A stretch of DNA of 37,367 bases from the NCBI GenBank assembly GCA_035703895.1, contig DASSXJ010000014.1:1-37367 (forward strand), written 5' to 3'. The notes below the pieces were generated by a model that was not told where the DNA came from, made no database searches, and worked only from the letters and a program-made list of their open reading frames with translations. Below, piece by piece: positions 13,461-19,062 of the stretch (positions are counted from its first letter, which is position 1; the number at the start of each line of letters is the position of its first letter). A program made the position numbers and the translations under genes. Origin of the DNA: a bacterium. Lineage in GTDB: Bacteria > Sysuimicrobiota > Sysuimicrobiia > Sysuimicrobiales > Segetimicrobiaceae.

Positions 13461-13595
13461 CTCGGCTGCTCCGGCGCGATGCTCGTCCGGCTTCCCGGTA
13501 TTTCCCAGGGTGTGCGGATATCCCTTGTGTCCGGGCCGCCGCGCGAGCGGAAAGGACACAGAAGATTCACAAGGTATTCAAGGGTTCTTCACGGG

Positions 13596-13620
13596 CGTCT
13601 CCTACGTTGGAGTGGAGACG
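13596..13620 (+). promoter_or_regulatory. Leader hairpin upstream of small exported protein
   Basis: CGTCTCC (13596-13602) and GGAGACG (13614-13620) form a perfect 7-bp stem with an 11-nt loop, ending 13 bp before the AAGGAGG ribosome site at 13634-13640. It could shelter or expose the ribosome site or stabilise the message. Short stems are common at this GC content, so confidence is low. Confidence 0.3.
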
Positions 13621-13649
13621 AACTCGTTCCAATAAGGAGGCGACGAATC

Positions 13650-13997
13650 ATGCGTATGCTCGCCTTGGGTCTTGTGCTCGGGGTCGTGTTTGGAACAGCC
13701 TTTCAGGCCGGAGCCGCGTACATGGAAGAACCGCTGTGGTCCCGGCTGGACCGGCAGGCGCAAACCGCGTACGTAGCGGGAGTGACGGATGCGCTCGAGT
13801 CGATTACGGAATTCGCCAGGCACGTCGGGCCCGTGCAGGCCATGCAGCGCGTCAGGATTGCCTCCGGCTGCGTGGGCCGCGTCCCCGCCAATCGGTTGGC
13901 CGATGTGGGAGCTCGGGCGATGGAGCAGACTCCGCAGGCTCCGCCGGCCACGGCCATCATCATGCGGATGGTCCAGTGCGGGAGCCGTCCGTATTAG
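13650..13997 (+). CDS. Small exported hypothetical protein, 115 aa
   Basis: Starts at ATG 13650 behind a near-perfect AAGGAGG. Residues 1-22 form a signal peptide (MRMLALGLVLGVVFGTAFQAGA). The mature ~93 residues are mostly helical with the pattern QAQTAYVAGVTDALESITEFA, one internal cysteine in ASGCVGRVP and a second near the C-terminus in MVQCGSRPY, which could form a disulfide outside the cytoplasm. The layout (helix with YxxGxxDA, middle Cys, terminal Cys) is loosely like Rap1a/Tai-type immunity proteins, but too weakly to name it. It stands alone: a divergent operon lies upstream and a hairpin 18 bp downstream. Confidence 0.7.
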   Translation: MRMLALGLVLGVVFGTAFQAGAAYMEEPLWSRLDRQAQTAYVAGVTDALESITEFARHVGPVQAMQRVRIASGCVGRVPANRLADVGARAMEQTPQAPPATAIIMRMVQCGSRPY

Positions 13998-14015
13998 GGA
14001 TGCTCGCCGAGATGG

Positions 14016-14046
14016 ACCGGGACCGAAGCGCTCCGTCGGTCCCGGT
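14016..14046 (+). terminator. Hairpin after the small exported protein
   Basis: ACCGGGACCGA (14016-14026) and TCGGTCCCGGT (14036-14046) are perfect 11-bp complements around a 9-nt loop, beginning 19 bp after the TAG at 13997. There is no U-run, so it is terminator-like rather than a classical intrinsic terminator; it could equally protect the 3' end. Confidence 0.5.
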
Positions 14047-14075
14047 TCCGAAGAGGGGTCCGCAGCAATAGCGCC

Positions 14076-14089
14076 CGACGGATCCGTCG
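14076..14089. promoter_or_regulatory. 14-bp palindrome upstream of the gamma-glutamyltransferase gene
   Basis: CGACGGATCCGTCG is a perfect palindrome about 60 bp before the ATG at 14151, in the gap where the promoter of the GGT/Gfo-Idh operon should be. Could bind a dimeric regulator. No clear -10 was identified beside it. Confidence 0.25.
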
Positions 14090-14150
14090 CGCGCTCGGTG
14101 ACTGCAACGGTAGAGGAGACTTCGGGTGCGGCCATGGAATTGTTGCGGGC

Positions 14151-15938
14151 ATGAGCACCCGATCGGGCTACCACGACTGGCAGTTCACGAGCGCCACACG
14201 GCCAATCATTCGGGGCCGGAGCCTCGTGGTGTCATGCGGGCACTACCTGGCCAGCCTCGCCGGCATGCGGATGCACGCGCTCGGCGGCAACGCGTTCGAC
14301 GCCGGTGTCGCCATGGTGTTCGCGCAGTCCGTGCTGGAGTTCCAGAGCTTTGGGTTCGGGGGTGAAGTCCCCATCCTGGTGTATTCGGCGAATGACCGCA
14401 AGGTCATCGCCGTCAACGGGAACATGTGTGCCCCCGAGGCGGCGACGATCGAATGGTTTCGCGCGCAGGGGATCACCCTGATCCCGGACGACGGGTTCCT
14501 CCCCGCGGGTGTCTGCGCCGTGCCGGACGCGCTGATCACGACACTCGGGCGCTACGGGCGCCTGACCCTGGAGCAGGTCCTCGCTCCGGCGATTGAGCTC
14601 GCATCCCGCGGGTTCCCCATGTACGAGGGGATGCTCCGGGGCCTGGAGATAAGCGAAGCGCGATTTCGAGCGGAGTGGCCGACCGCTGCCGCGCTCTTCC
14701 TCCCGGGAGGCGCCGTGCCGAGGATCGGGGACACGTGGCGCAACCCAGACCTCGCCCGCACGTTCGAGCGCCTCGTCGACGCCGAGCGGAACGCCCGGTC
14801 GCGCGGGCGCAGCGCCGCACTCGAGGCCGCCAGGGACTGCTTCTACCGCGGCCCGATCGCGCGCGAGATCGTCGCGTTCCAGCGGGACACGGCTGTGCGT
14901 GACGCCAACGGAACGGTCGCGCACGGATTGCTCACCGAGGACGATTTCGCACACTTTCGCACGCGCATCGAGGCCCCGGTGATGATCAATTACCGCGGCT
15001 ACGACGTGTACAAGTGCGGGCCCTGGTCTCAGGGCCCGGTGTTCCTCCAGCAGCTCGCCCTGCTCGACGGCTTCGACCTTCCCGCACTCGGCCACAATTC
15101 GGCGAACTACATCCACACCATTATGGAAGCGGCGAAGTTGGCGCTGGCCGATCGCGAGCGCTACTACGGAGATCCCGAGTTTGTGGACGTGCCGGTGCGG
15201 GGGTTGCTGTCGAAGCCCTATGCGGCCGCGCGCCGCGCGCTGATCGACCCGCGCGTCGCATCGCGCGACCTGCGTCCCGGCGATCCCTACCCATTCGAAG
15301 GCAGCGAGCGCCCCGCCGGCACGGCCCCCACCAGGAGCCGCCGTTGGGACGGGGGGACGACGGGCGCCCGGGCCATCGACGCCGAGGGCAACATGTTCTC
15401 CGCCACGCCGAGCGGCGGGTGGTTCCGCAGTTCGCCGATCATCCCCGGGCTCGGGTTCTGCCTCGGGACACGCGGGCAGATGTTCTGGCTGGACGACCCC
15501 AACCACCCGGGAGCGCTGCGGCCCCGGAAGCGCCCCCGCACGACGCTCTCACCCTCCCTGGTCATGCAGGCAGACCGGCCGTCCATGGTCTTCGGGACGC
15601 CGGGCGGCGATCAGCAGGATCAGTGGACCCTGCAGTTCTTCCTGAACGTCGTGGACTTCGGGATGGACCTGCAGGATGCGATCGACACCCCCAGTTTCCA
15701 CACCGCCCACGCCCCGAGCTCATTTTATCCGCGACAGGCACGCCCGGGGGAGGTGGTCGTCGAAGGTCGGATCCCCCGCGAGGTGGTCGAGGACCTTGAG
15801 GCGCGAGGTCACACCGTCAGGGTCGTCGGCGATTGGAGCCTCAATTACACGACGGCGGTGGCGTTCGACGGCGCGCGCGGGCTCATCGAGGGGGCGGCAA
15901 GTTCTCGGGGCGAGCGGAACTACGCGCTCGGGTGGTAG
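14151..15938 (+). CDS. Gamma-glutamyltransferase family (Ntn-hydrolase) protein
   Basis: 595 residues. N-terminal motifs of the family are present (ASLAGMRMHALGGNAFDAGVA; SFGFGGEVPILVY), along with GYDVYKCGPWSQGP and, in the small subunit, TPGGDQQDQW. The autocleavage site reads DGGTTGARAID with Thr403 as expected nucleophile; classical enzymes have TTH there, whereas this has TTG. No signal peptide is seen, so it is predicted cytoplasmic, unlike periplasmic GGT. The family hydrolyses gamma-glutamyl amides such as glutathione or cleaves related acyl amides; many distant members have unknown substrates. It is followed after 10 bp by a Gfo/Idh/MocA gene preceded by its own GGAGGG, giving a three-gene unit to 17936. 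Confidence 0.88.
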   Translation: MSTRSGYHDWQFTSATRPIIRGRSLVVSCGHYLASLAGMRMHALGGNAFDAGVAMVFAQSVLEFQSFGFGGEVPILVYSANDRKVIAVNGNMCAPEAATIEWFRAQGITLIPDDGFLPAGVCAVPDALITTLGRYGRLTLEQVLAPAIELASRGFPMYEGMLRGLEISEARFRAEWPTAAALFLPGGAVPRIGDTWRNPDLARTFERLVDAERNARSRGRSAALEAARDCFYRGPIAREIVAFQRDTAVRDANGTVAHGLLTEDDFAHFRTRIEAPVMINYRGYDVYKCGPWSQGPVFLQQLALLDGFDLPALGHNSANYIHTIMEAAKLALADRERYYGDPEFVDVPVRGLLSKPYAAARRALIDPRVASRDLRPGDPYPFEGSERPAGTAPTRSRRWDGGTTGARAIDAEGNMFSATPSGGWFRSSPIIPGLGFCLGTRGQMFWLDDPNHPGALRPRKRPRTTLSPSLVMQADRPSMVFGTPGGDQQDQWTLQFFLNVVDFGMDLQDAIDTPSFHTAHAPSSFYPRQARPGEVVVEGRIPREVVEDLEARGHTVRVVGDWSLNYTTAVAFDGARGLIEGAASSRGERNYALGW

Positions 15939-15948
15939 GAGGGTCCTC

Positions 15949-16998
15949 GTGCAGCCGGTGCGGGTGGGGCTGATCGGGTGCGGGAGCATTGCCCGGGCGG
16001 CGCACCTCCCCGCGATGAGTGCCTTGAGCGACCGCGTGACACTGGTCGCGACCGCCGATACGAGCGAGCCGGCGGCGCGGGCCGCGGCCGCTCCGTGGGA
16101 AGCCGCCGCCTACACGGACGGCTACGAGCTCATCCGCAGGCGGGACATCGACATGGTGATGATTGCGACGCCGGAGGCCGCGCACCGCGAATGGACGGTG
16201 GCCGCTGCGGCGGCGGGGAAGCACGTCCTGTGCGAGAAGCCGATGGCTCCCACGCTGGTCGACGCGGATGCGATGATCGCCGCGTGCCGCACGGCCGGCG
16301 TCCGCCTCATGATCGGCCACAGCCGGCGGTTCACGCGGCGGTACATCGAGATCCGCCGCGCCGTCGATCGGGGCGACATCGGCGCCGTGCGACTGCTGCG
16401 CGAGAACGAACGGCGGTCTCGCGCGCGTCGGGGAGCCCCAGGAGGATATTATTCGGCCGCGCACTGGACTGGCGACCCGAAGGTGTCCGTTGGCGCGGCG
16501 CTGACGAACGGGATCCACGAGATGGATCTCCTCCGCTGGTTTGCCGGTTCCGAACCGATCTCGGTGTTCGCCGAGCACAAGGTCACCGTGGAGGGGAACA
16601 TCGGCGTGCCCGACTTCCTCACGTGCACCGTCCATTTTGCGGATGGGACCATCGGGTCCTCGGAGATCAGCAACTGTCTGCCCCCGGGGTATCCGGCGTT
16701 TCACCAGTTCGAGATCTACGGGACGCGAGGCGCCGTGCGCGCCAAAGATCATGACCTGATCGGCGTCACCAGGTACCGCGATGAGGGAGCCGATTTTCCC
16801 GAGAGCGACCGGACGCTCCTCCACAACCCCCCGGCCTACGTCCGGGAATGGGTCGCGTTCCTGGAGGCGGTGCAGCACGACCGCCCCGTGCCGATGCCAC
16901 CCGAGGAAGCGCGTGCGGCCCTCCGGCTCGCCCTTGCGGTCGTGGAGTCGGCCCGCACCGGACGGACCGCGCACCTTGACGCTCGGGGTGTCGGGTGA
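15949..16998 (+). CDS. Gfo/Idh/MocA family NAD(P)-dependent oxidoreductase
   Basis: 349 residues from GTG 15949, preceded by TAGGAGGG. Rossmann motif GLIGCGSIARAAHLPAM at 7-23; the signature Glu96-Lys97-Pro98 occurs in GKHVLCEKPMAP, and His190/Asp193 in NGIHEMDLLRW form the catalytic site with Lys97. Members oxidise or reduce sugars, inositols, sugar acids or, in some cases, dipeptides and hydroxy acids. The downstream gene overlaps by 4 bp and encodes a degenerate relative. Substrate unknown; all catalytic residues are present, so this should be the active member of the pair. Confidence 0.92.
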   Translation: MQPVRVGLIGCGSIARAAHLPAMSALSDRVTLVATADTSEPAARAAAAPWEAAAYTDGYELIRRRDIDMVMIATPEAAHREWTVAAAAAGKHVLCEKPMAPTLVDADAMIAACRTAGVRLMIGHSRRFTRRYIEIRRAVDRGDIGAVRLLRENERRSRARRGAPGGYYSAAHWTGDPKVSVGAALTNGIHEMDLLRWFAGSEPISVFAEHKVTVEGNIGVPDFLTCTVHFADGTIGSSEISNCLPPGYPAFHQFEIYGTRGAVRAKDHDLIGVTRYRDEGADFPESDRTLLHNPPAYVREWVAFLEAVQHDRPVPMPPEEARAALRLALAVVESARTGRTAHLDARGVG

Positions 16999-17936
16999 GC
17001 CGTCCCGTTCCGATCGGCATCGTCGGGGCCGGCCGGCACGCGCAGGCCCTTGCGGGCCACGAGGCTCCCCTCCCGGGGGCGCGGGTATCCCGGTGGGCGG
17101 CCAGCCCGTGCGGGCATGACCGCGATCGGGCCGCCGCCCTCGCCGAGCGGATCGGCGCCGAATTCTCGGCTGACTGGGAGGCCGTCGCAGGCGATCCTTC
17201 CCTCCCGGCGGTGCTGGTCTTGAGCAGCGATCCGGGGAGGCGCGCGGTCCTGCACCGCGCGTTATCGGCAGGCAAGGTGGTGCTGAGCCCCCTGCCCACC
17301 GTCACCACCGAAGCCGAGGTCGACGGCGTGGCCGCGGCAGAGGCGCGGGGCCGCGGTGTGCTCCTGTCCCCGAGCGCGCTGCGGCACACCGCCGCGGGCA
17401 CGAGCGTCCTCAAGATGGTCGCGGAGGGTGAGCTGGGGACGCTTCACTCCGTGTACGCCGCCGGCCGGTTCCCGCGGGGCGATCGGCAGGGGCGGCCCGG
17501 GGTGCTCGAGGACGCGGGATGGGAGATCTTCGACTTCCTGCTCGCGGTCGCCCCCGCGCCTGTGCTGCGCGTTCACGCGCAGACCGGCGCCCTCTTCGGG
17601 TCCCACGGGCAGGACACCGCCGTCCTTGTGATCCGGTTCGAGAACGACGTGATCGCGACGATCGAGCTCTCACGCTGCCTGCCGCCGTCGATCCCCGTCC
17701 CCCCTTCTGGGGAGATGGAGATCGAGCTGATCGGGTCCCGGCAGGCCGTCAGGCTGCAGCCATACGCCTCGTCGCTCAGCCTTTTCGGTCCCACGGCCGT
17801 TCGGTGTCCGTGGGTCGATGATCCCGTGGTTTCCATGGTGCGCGAGGTCGTGGACGTGGTCACGGGCGAGGCGGATCGAATCGATGGCGCGGCCTCCCTT
17901 CGCCGGGTCGTGGCGCTCATGAACGCCGTGCGATAA
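16995..17936 (+). CDS. Degenerate Gfo/Idh/MocA homologue, probable non-catalytic partner
   Basis: 313 residues from a GTG whose GTGA overlaps the TGA of the upstream gene, giving tight translational coupling. The Rossmann start PIGIVGAGRHAQALA (residues 6-20) and overall layout are Gfo/Idh/MocA. The catalytic EKP is replaced by Pro99-Leu100-Pro101 (VVLSPLPTV) and the active-site His by Glu177 (DAGWEIFDFL), while the neighbouring Asp180 is kept. Without Lys and His normal hydride-transfer chemistry is unlikely. It may be a structural or regulatory subunit of the upstream enzyme (inference). The C-terminal domain is intact (IELSRCLPPSIPVP parallels ISNCLPPGYPAF of the partner), pointing to duplication. 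Its last 20 bp overlap the convergent gene. Confidence 0.82.
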   Translation: MSRPVPIGIVGAGRHAQALAGHEAPLPGARVSRWAASPCGHDRDRAAALAERIGAEFSADWEAVAGDPSLPAVLVLSSDPGRRAVLHRALSAGKVVLSPLPTVTTEAEVDGVAAAEARGRGVLLSPSALRHTAAGTSVLKMVAEGELGTLHSVYAAGRFPRGDRQGRPGVLEDAGWEIFDFLLAVAPAPVLRVHAQTGALFGSHGQDTAVLVIRFENDVIATIELSRCLPPSIPVPPSGEMEIELIGSRQAVRLQPYASSLSLFGPTAVRCPWVDDPVVSMVREVVDVVTGEADRIDGAASLRRVVALMNAVR

Positions 17937-18954
17937 TGTCGTTTCCCCAGACGAGAAACCGCCCATCCGCGAGCCGATCGAGCGCATCCACCTGCGCCCT
18001 CGTCCCTTCCGGGGTCGCCCGCCACCGCTCCACCGAATCGCCGAGCTCGAGCGTGTAGAGCACCTTGACGGGCGTGCCGGTCAGCGCCTCCCTGACCGTC
18101 ATGAGATTCTTCACGTTGGCGTTCAAGTCGAACCGGCTCTGATACTCTACCATCAAGTACTCTCCCCAGGCCTGGGGATAGGACTGGTAGATGAGCAGGT
18201 CCAACCCGGCGTCGGCGAGCTGGCGATAATCCACACCGTGCTTCCGCGCCTCGCGATACGGGAATCCCAAATGATCGTACGCGAGGAGCACGCCTCGCGC
18301 GCGGTGCACGGCATCCGCGATGACCCGGTACAGGCGCGTCCACTGCGGAATCGCGCGCTCGTTGTTCGCGTATCGATCCGGATCCCACACACTGCCGAAC
18401 CCGCACAATCCATCGCCCAGCATCAGCCCGTCGAATCCAAATGCCGTATGAAGCCGCTCGTACTGGCGGGCGATGTACTCGGCGTACTCCATGCCCTCGC
18501 GCCGCAACCGCACAAACGGGTTCAAGTGGCTGCTCAACGGCAGTTTCTTCAACTCGGGGTGCTCGCGCAGCCACGGCGGTTTTCGGTGGAACCACCCGCC
18601 TCCATAGCTCCAAAATCCGATCGCGACCTGGAGCCCCTGCGTGTGGAGTTCGCGGACCAGCCCTTTCAGATCTTGCTGGGTGGACCAGAGGCGAAGAGGG
18701 CCGTGGCGGTTCAGCCGGGTGTCTGCGTGCGGGTCATAGGTGCGGAAGGAGAGGAAAAATTGCGGATCCCGATCCTCCATGATCACGACGCCCTGCAACC
18801 CCACAAGCCGCCGCAGCGGCCGCTGGAAGGCGCCGAGGTCGACGCACGCCCAGGTGCGATCGTTCACCACCTCCGCGTAGGGAATGGGGGATGGACCGTA
18901 GCGCCGAAACATCCAAAGCCACGCCGCTTTGAGGAGATGGAGGGGCGGCCTCAT
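17917..18954 (-). CDS. Unrecognised protein, possibly TIM-barrel glycosidase-like
   Basis: 345 residues from ATG 18954 (an in-frame TTG four codons upstream is possible; neither has a Shine-Dalgarno). Alternating beta-strand/helix segments and motifs such as GVVIMEDRDPQFFLSFRTYD, VAIGFWSYGGGW, FGFDGLMLGDGLCGFGSVWD and GVLLAYDHLGFPYREA suggest a (beta/alpha)8 barrel with acidic residues at strand ends, as in glycoside hydrolases that act on sugars or uncharacterised DUF families. No signal peptide is evident. It converges on the degenerate Gfo/Idh gene with a 20-bp overlap of the 3' ends. Product exists with good confidence (long, balanced composition); function is only suggested. Confidence 0.65.
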   Translation of the reverse strand: MRPPLHLLKAAWLWMFRRYGPSPIPYAEVVNDRTWACVDLGAFQRPLRRLVGLQGVVIMEDRDPQFFLSFRTYDPHADTRLNRHGPLRLWSTQQDLKGLVRELHTQGLQVAIGFWSYGGGWFHRKPPWLREHPELKKLPLSSHLNPFVRLRREGMEYAEYIARQYERLHTAFGFDGLMLGDGLCGFGSVWDPDRYANNERAIPQWTRLYRVIADAVHRARGVLLAYDHLGFPYREARKHGVDYRQLADAGLDLLIYQSYPQAWGEYLMVEYQSRFDLNANVKNLMTVREALTGTPVKVLYTLELGDSVERWRATPEGTRAQVDALDRLADGRFLVWGNDIIARRS

Positions 18955-19062
18955 GAAGTGGGGCAATTACGCGGGGGGCCGCAACTCTCCTTGGCGCAGG
19001 TGGTGCGGTTTGGGGGGCAGGAACCAGGAGAGGGCGATCCTAACTCCTGCATGGAGGGGCCA

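Follow-up and report, generated by a model that had tools for sequence, protein, structure and literature searches.

The window, by which we mean the whole 37,367-nucleotide stretch of DNA that was analysed, contains two overlapping genes on the forward strand, P1 and P2, whose products both belong to the Gfo/Idh/MocA superfamily. The features at this locus are as follows.

14151..15938, forward strand: gamma-glutamyltranspeptidase-like gene, 10 bases before P1; the same neighbour is found only in genome G002
15949..16998, forward strand: P1, GTG start, 349 aa; Gfo/Idh/MocA oxidoreductase that has H79, E96-K97-P98 and H190 and is presumably the catalytic subunit
16995..16998, forward strand: GTGA start/stop overlap of P1 and P2; RTGA in 8 of 8 orthologous loci
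16995..17936, forward strand: P2, GTG start, 313 aa; Gfo/Idh/MocA fold without equivalents of the EKP Lys, H79 and H190; presumed non-catalytic partner
17286..17297, forward strand: P2 codons S98-P99-L100-P101, at the place of P1 C95-E96-K97-P98
17523..17525, forward strand: P2 codon E177, aligned with P1 H190; an acidic residue (Asp or Glu) in all 8 P2 proteins

The initial annotation described two homologous genes that overlap by 4 bp, and this is borne out both by the GTGA overlap and by Pfam, which assigns both products to Gfo/Idh/MocA. P1 scores 97.5 bits against PF01408 (cut-off 24) and 81.5 bits against the C-domain model PF22725 (cut-off 27); the corresponding scores of P2 are 25.4 bits, barely above the cut-off, and 41.3 bits, clearly above it. 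P2 has both the Rossmann N-domain and the Gfo-type C-domain of the superfamily, each over its curated cut-off, and the P2 profile matches solved family members at 2.9e-11. The best NCBIfam match of P1 is TIGR04380 (inositol dehydrogenase IolG), with 178 bits across almost the full length of the model, but this score is far under the equivalog cut-off of 355, and P1 does not fall within the IolG equivalog. A promoter and terminator scan of positions 13500-18200 gave nothing clearly over the chance level. Downstream, a gene on the reverse strand (17917-18966) shares 20 bases at its 3′ end with the end of P2; it encodes a 349-aa protein that has no Pfam or NCBIfam match and is 69% identical to a protein encoded at the same place in G002.

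Orthologues of P2 (E value of 1e-20 or better) are found in 8 of the 12 genomes of the window's family, in 8 of the 9 family genomes with at least 90% completeness and at most 5% contamination, and in none of the 31 other genomes of the phylum that were searched (8 of 43 for the phylum overall). The four family genomes that lack P2 (G001, G003, G004 and G007, of which G003 is 68% and G004 64% complete) have no P1 at that level either. We searched 386 genomes with profiles made from the 8 sequences of each protein, scoring 5 candidates per genome. The same 8 P2 proteins scored 504-522 bits, with the next best at 67.7 bits, and the same 8 P1 proteins scored 697-721 bits, with the next best at 170 bits. 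The 8 genomes of the 386 that have a P1 orthologue are also those that have a P2 orthologue, the pattern expected of a heteromeric pseudoenzyme or prozyme, in which a dead relative is conserved with a live one; all 8 genomes come from one family, which limits the independent evidence that this co-occurrence provides. A pattern scan of genome contigs with P2 alone gave no match, although that method is too insensitive to claim absence, and the same scan with the P2 profile gave two loci, taken as those of G010 and G008.

P1 is directly upstream of P2 in all 8 loci, with an ATGA or GTGA overlap in each, and identity to the window's proteins is 71-77% for P1 and 49-58% for P2. Such RTGA overlaps are frequent in operons and do not, alone, demonstrate contact between the encoded proteins.

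To compare residues, we aligned the 8 P1 and 8 P2 proteins with 71 other homologues. These were obtained from 75 matching open frames by dropping 4 copies of P1 or P2 that were already in the set; 54 are from the genomes of the family and 17 from more distant genomes. The family genomes hold 189 PF01408 matches at 1e-5, of which the 54 homologues read are only a part. P1 residues E96, K97, P98 and H190 align with P2 residues P99, L100, P101 and E177, so that the earlier description of EKP and His190 in the first protein and of PLP and Glu in the second holds, with numbering that matches the translations.

P2 has lost residues that most of its relatives keep. The Lys of the EKP motif is present in 8/8 P1 proteins and in 71/71 other homologues examined but in 0/8 P2 proteins, and for this reason we consider its loss in P2 to be above chance. 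Similarly, the EKP Glu is found in 8/8 P1, 0/8 P2 and 69/71 others, and His79 in 8/8 P1, 0/8 P2 and 66/71 others. The H190 position is His in all 8 P1 proteins, Asp (6) or Glu (2) in the 8 P2 proteins, and His (62), Tyr (6) or Pro (3) in the 71 others. A catalytic dehydrogenase of this superfamily would be expected to have the EKP Lys and either His or Tyr at the H190 position; P2 has neither, while Lys and His are both present in 8/8 P1 proteins. The initial annotation had asked whether the same pair exists elsewhere with the loss of Lys and His conserved; the pair is present in 8 family genomes, and the loss is seen in every P2.

The residue four before the His, an Asp that is catalytic in IolG, differs in P1. 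This position is Thr in 5 and Leu in 3 of the P1 proteins, Glu, Arg or Asp in the P2 proteins, and Asp in 41/71 others. In the window, positions 16504-16518 encode P1 residues 186-190, which begin with this Thr (Leu in three orthologues), followed by the invariant Asn187; none of the 71 other homologues read has Thr or Leu four before the His. Having Thr or Leu in place of this Asp sets P1 apart from IolG-like enzymes and counts against a simple story in which P1 is an ordinary member of the superfamily. The initial annotation also stated that Asp180 is kept in P2. An Asp is indeed present there in 8/8 P2 proteins, but it corresponds to P1 D193, three after the His (8/8 P1 and 58/71 others), and is not at the catalytic Asp position.

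The constraint that remains around this site in P2 might indicate that the pocket persists and was repurposed, using an acid where the catalytic His would be and the conserved Trp that precedes it, for a non-redox reaction (hydrolysis, isomerisation or epimerisation) on what P1 consumes or produces. The restriction of the His position to Asp or Glu would fit such a role, as would the invariance of Trp176, Asp180, H151, S152, R158, K94 and R130 in 8/8 P2 proteins. However, the EKP segment has drifted to PLP (G000), PVP (G002), AAP (G011, G006 and G009), GAA (G010), APA (G005) and RAA (G008), and the Trp-bearing pocket loop is absent from all 8 P2 proteins. We therefore regard a repurposed active site as unlikely.

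The cofactor site of P2 is similarly eroded. All 8 P2 proteins retain the first two Gly of the Rossmann turn, and 6/8 keep the second Gly of GxG (P1 G12), which is replaced by Asp in G002 and by Asn in G005. None of the 8 has the acidic residue of beta2 (P1 D37, an Asp in 46/71 others), although the alignment shows an insertion beside this site in P2, and none has the TPxxxH His. Thus, the earlier statement that the Rossmann fold is kept stands for the fold but only in part for its signature. P2 retains the fold but few of the contacts to the cofactor, and it is doubtful that it binds NAD(P) in the ordinary way. The C-terminal domain, which had been described as intact, is not: this part of P2 is shortened, it has no match to PF02894, which does match P1, and the Trp-bearing loop (P1 W173) next to the active helix is missing from 8/8 P2 proteins, as it is gapped in 12/71 others. 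AlphaFold single-chain models, made from three-row alignments, were poor (pLDDT 48.9 for P2 and 49.5 for P1), but even this low-confidence model of P2 aligns best to Gfo/Idh/MocA chains (Z 12.3, 156 residues aligned, rmsd 3.7).

A protein that keeps the fold might instead act as a sensor of a ligand or of redox state that controls P1, a transporter or gene expression, much as Gal80, a yeast regulator, has a Gfo/Idh/MocA fold. The retained fold and the second Gly of GxG are in keeping with a sensor, but the loss of most cofactor contacts is not, Pfam detects no DNA-binding domain in P2, and no regulator was found among the neighbours of the pair scanned with Pfam. The substrate-sensor role suggested in the initial annotation thus gains no support here, and we think a Gal80-like function quite improbable.

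The genes around the pair differ between genera. The gamma-glutamyltranspeptidase-like protein of the window scores 406.8 bits, over the Pfam cut-off, but 271.8 bits against an NCBIfam equivalog cut-off of 357.85, and is 82% identical to its G002 counterpart. Its translation (14151-15938) contains the stretch GGTTGARAID where classical enzymes have TTH at the nucleophile. A tblastn search with this gene found no copy in the six pair loci other than those of the window and G002. The specific tie to a gamma-glutamyltransferase-like enzyme that was drawn earlier is therefore local, and we rejected a partnership with this enzyme as the basis of the pair.

Elsewhere, the pair in G009 and G011 is preceded by a mandelate-racemase/enolase-type gene; behind it come one gene of the Asp/Glu/hydantoin-racemase type and one for a family 5 solute-binding protein, with an Opp-type permease further upstream and an oligopeptide-type ATPase downstream (scanned in G011 only). 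Behind the pair, G008 has genes for a solute-binding protein of family 5 and for a permease, and on the other side of the pair it has divergent MFS and D-2-hydroxyacid dehydrogenase genes; genes of similar size and place occur in G005 and G010, of which the MFS gene of G005 alone was scanned. In G006, the contig is short, and a creatininase-type gene comes after the pair. The settings of the pair are catabolic-looking and often transporter-linked, and the P1-P2 pair is constant while its neighbours change.

The same observation bears on the idea that P2 is co-transcribed with P1 but physically independent of it, for instance as a substrate carrier or chaperone that forms a homo-oligomer. Genes that co-occur and lie in one operon need not encode proteins that touch, which leaves room for this idea, but no third partner is constant across the contexts in which the pair is seen, and we give the idea little credence.

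P2 is under purifying selection. All 8 P2 frames are without internal stops at pairwise identities of 44-86%, and dN is below dS in all 28 pairs by the NG86 method, although most dS values are near saturation and only close pairs are informative. For the pair G008/G010, dN/dS values of P2 are 0.071/0.212 (NG86) and 0.058/0.481 (YN00), and those of P1 are 0.039/0.19 (NG86) and 0.033/0.48 (YN00). For G009/G011, the NG86 values are 0.154/0.894 for P2 and 0.077/0.648 for P1. At amino-acid-changing sites, P2 thus evolves about twice as fast as P1, yet it is constrained.

P1 and P2 each form a single clade, at 100/100, in a tree of 87 rows. Within the P2 clade the genomes group by genus (g1, g2 and g3); within the P1 clade g2 and g3 are recovered, but the two g1 sequences are not united with support, G002 joining the others at 82/66. 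The stem of the P2 clade is 2.13 changes per column long and joins another clade at 92/81, and joins of such long branches are unsafe. The loss of residues in P2, as read from these alignments, is most simply explained as a single event before these genera split. P2 may or may not derive from P1 by simple tandem duplication: it is not the sister of P1 in the tree, yet a tree in which P1 and P2 were forced together was not rejected (p-AU 0.182). A CLPP loop shared by P1 and P2 was also discarded as a link between them: 2/71 other homologues (L052 and L055) have CLPPG at apparently the same place.

The faster evolution and long stem of P2 might suggest a decaying duplicate, but this reading is already contradicted by the open frames and by dN below dS in 28/28 pairs, and is extremely improbable. 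The signs of decay that the initial annotation had named, P2 homologues with EKP (0/8), stop codons or high dN/dS, are all absent. The retained role proposed for the second protein is supported, since its gene is intact, codes for a protein stripped of the same residues in all 8 genomes, always overlaps P1 and is under purifying selection, and of the roles suggested a heteromeric partner fits the sequence evidence best.

We consider it probable, with moderate confidence, that P2 is a pseudoenzyme that acts as a non-catalytic, obligate partner subunit of P1. This partner model is supported by the co-occurrence in the same 8/386 genomes, the RTGA overlap in 8/8 loci, the stability of the pair amid changing neighbours and the stripping of 8/8 P2 proteins. 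The P2 lineage lacks the Lys-His pair and most cofactor-contact residues in all 8 genomes and has been kept under purifying selection, only together with P1. According to this model, P2 would be translated from the P1 message by way of the RTGA overlap and would assemble with P1, most likely through the C-terminal beta-sheet, which is the dimer surface in the Gfo/Idh/MocA superfamily and the most conserved stretch of P2. P1 in this assembly would carry NAD(P) and oxidise or reduce a substrate of the polyol, sugar-acid or hydroxy-acid type, and P2 may stabilise or activate P1, or shape its substrate site, in the manner of a prozyme.

The regional distribution of invariant positions agrees with a contact through the sheet: P2 has 25/128 in the N-domain and then 13/60, 24/68 in the beta-sheet and 6/57, and P1 has 66/124, 43/76, 42/68 in the beta-sheet and 27/81. 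The sheet is the most invariant region in both proteins, so this pattern supports the partner model weakly and is not specific to P2.

Two known systems resemble the pair. In the PDB entries 8w9s, 9vcm, 9vcn and 9vco, a P1-like chain and RifT are present in equal numbers (8 and 8 in the four entries), and we infer from the names that the P1-like chain is RifS. RifS and RifT, of rifamycin biosynthesis, are like P1 and P2 in that their genes are adjacent and their Gfo/Idh/MocA-type chains were deposited together, and these complexes suggest that two such chains can co-assemble. The P1 profile matches the P1-like chain of the 8w9s set at 3.2e-19; the P2 profile matches RifT at 5.7e-4, which is weaker than its match to dozens of other solved superfamily members. 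The RifT chain has 256 aa, and the match begins at position 64 of the P2 profile but at residue 18 of RifT, which suggests that the first Rossmann strands, present in P2, are missing from RifT. RifT was not among the alignments displayed when segments of P2 orthologues were compared with solved chains. The rifS-rifT operon is named in an excerpt of PMC7062684, and a passage of PMC4551226 gives cxmS and cxmT as homologues of rifS and rifT in another cluster; our literature search had no paper on 8w9s among its results.

In the second system, deoxyhypusine synthase of trypanosomatids, PMC3663545 describes a dead paralogue that forms a heterotetramer with an impaired relative, which is thereby activated. 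This prozyme is like P2 in being a catalytically dead relative of its partner, but it has another fold and belongs to another enzyme, and the complex is demonstrated there and inferred here.

More tentatively, and as a possibility that we rate below an even chance, P1 and P2 may constitute a family-specific two-subunit dehydrogenase in which the subunit without cofactor grip or catalysis is an obligate allosteric or substrate-shaping partner, that is, a bacterial prozyme. The Gfo/Idh/MocA superfamily is generally treated as homo-oligomeric, and a literature search, mostly of non-subscription journals and with the slashed superfamily name unsearchable, returned nothing, in titles or abstracts, about a pseudoenzyme pair of this kind. 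Pseudoenzyme partners as a kind are already known, and P2 would be a clade-limited example. If the partner model is correct, such subunits are mislabelled by annotation pipelines that name all Gfo/Idh/MocA proteins oxidoreductases, and enzymes of the P1 type would seem weak or inactive when assayed on their own. The pair provides a compact, testable case of a dehydrogenase family evolving a dead partner, and an arrangement like that of RifS/RifT in a catabolic context would point to heteromers being commoner in the superfamily than assumed.

Tandem runs of Gfo/Idh/MocA genes are common in these genomes. At locus L041 (contig G008:C131, 900-4010, forward strand), three more such genes lie in a row near P1-P2, all with EKP. 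A separate clade, with one homologue each in L014, L015, L017, L018, L039 and L041, has SFAHxH or GYAHVH at the Rossmann turn rather than GxGxxG/A, and keeps EKP, Asp and His.
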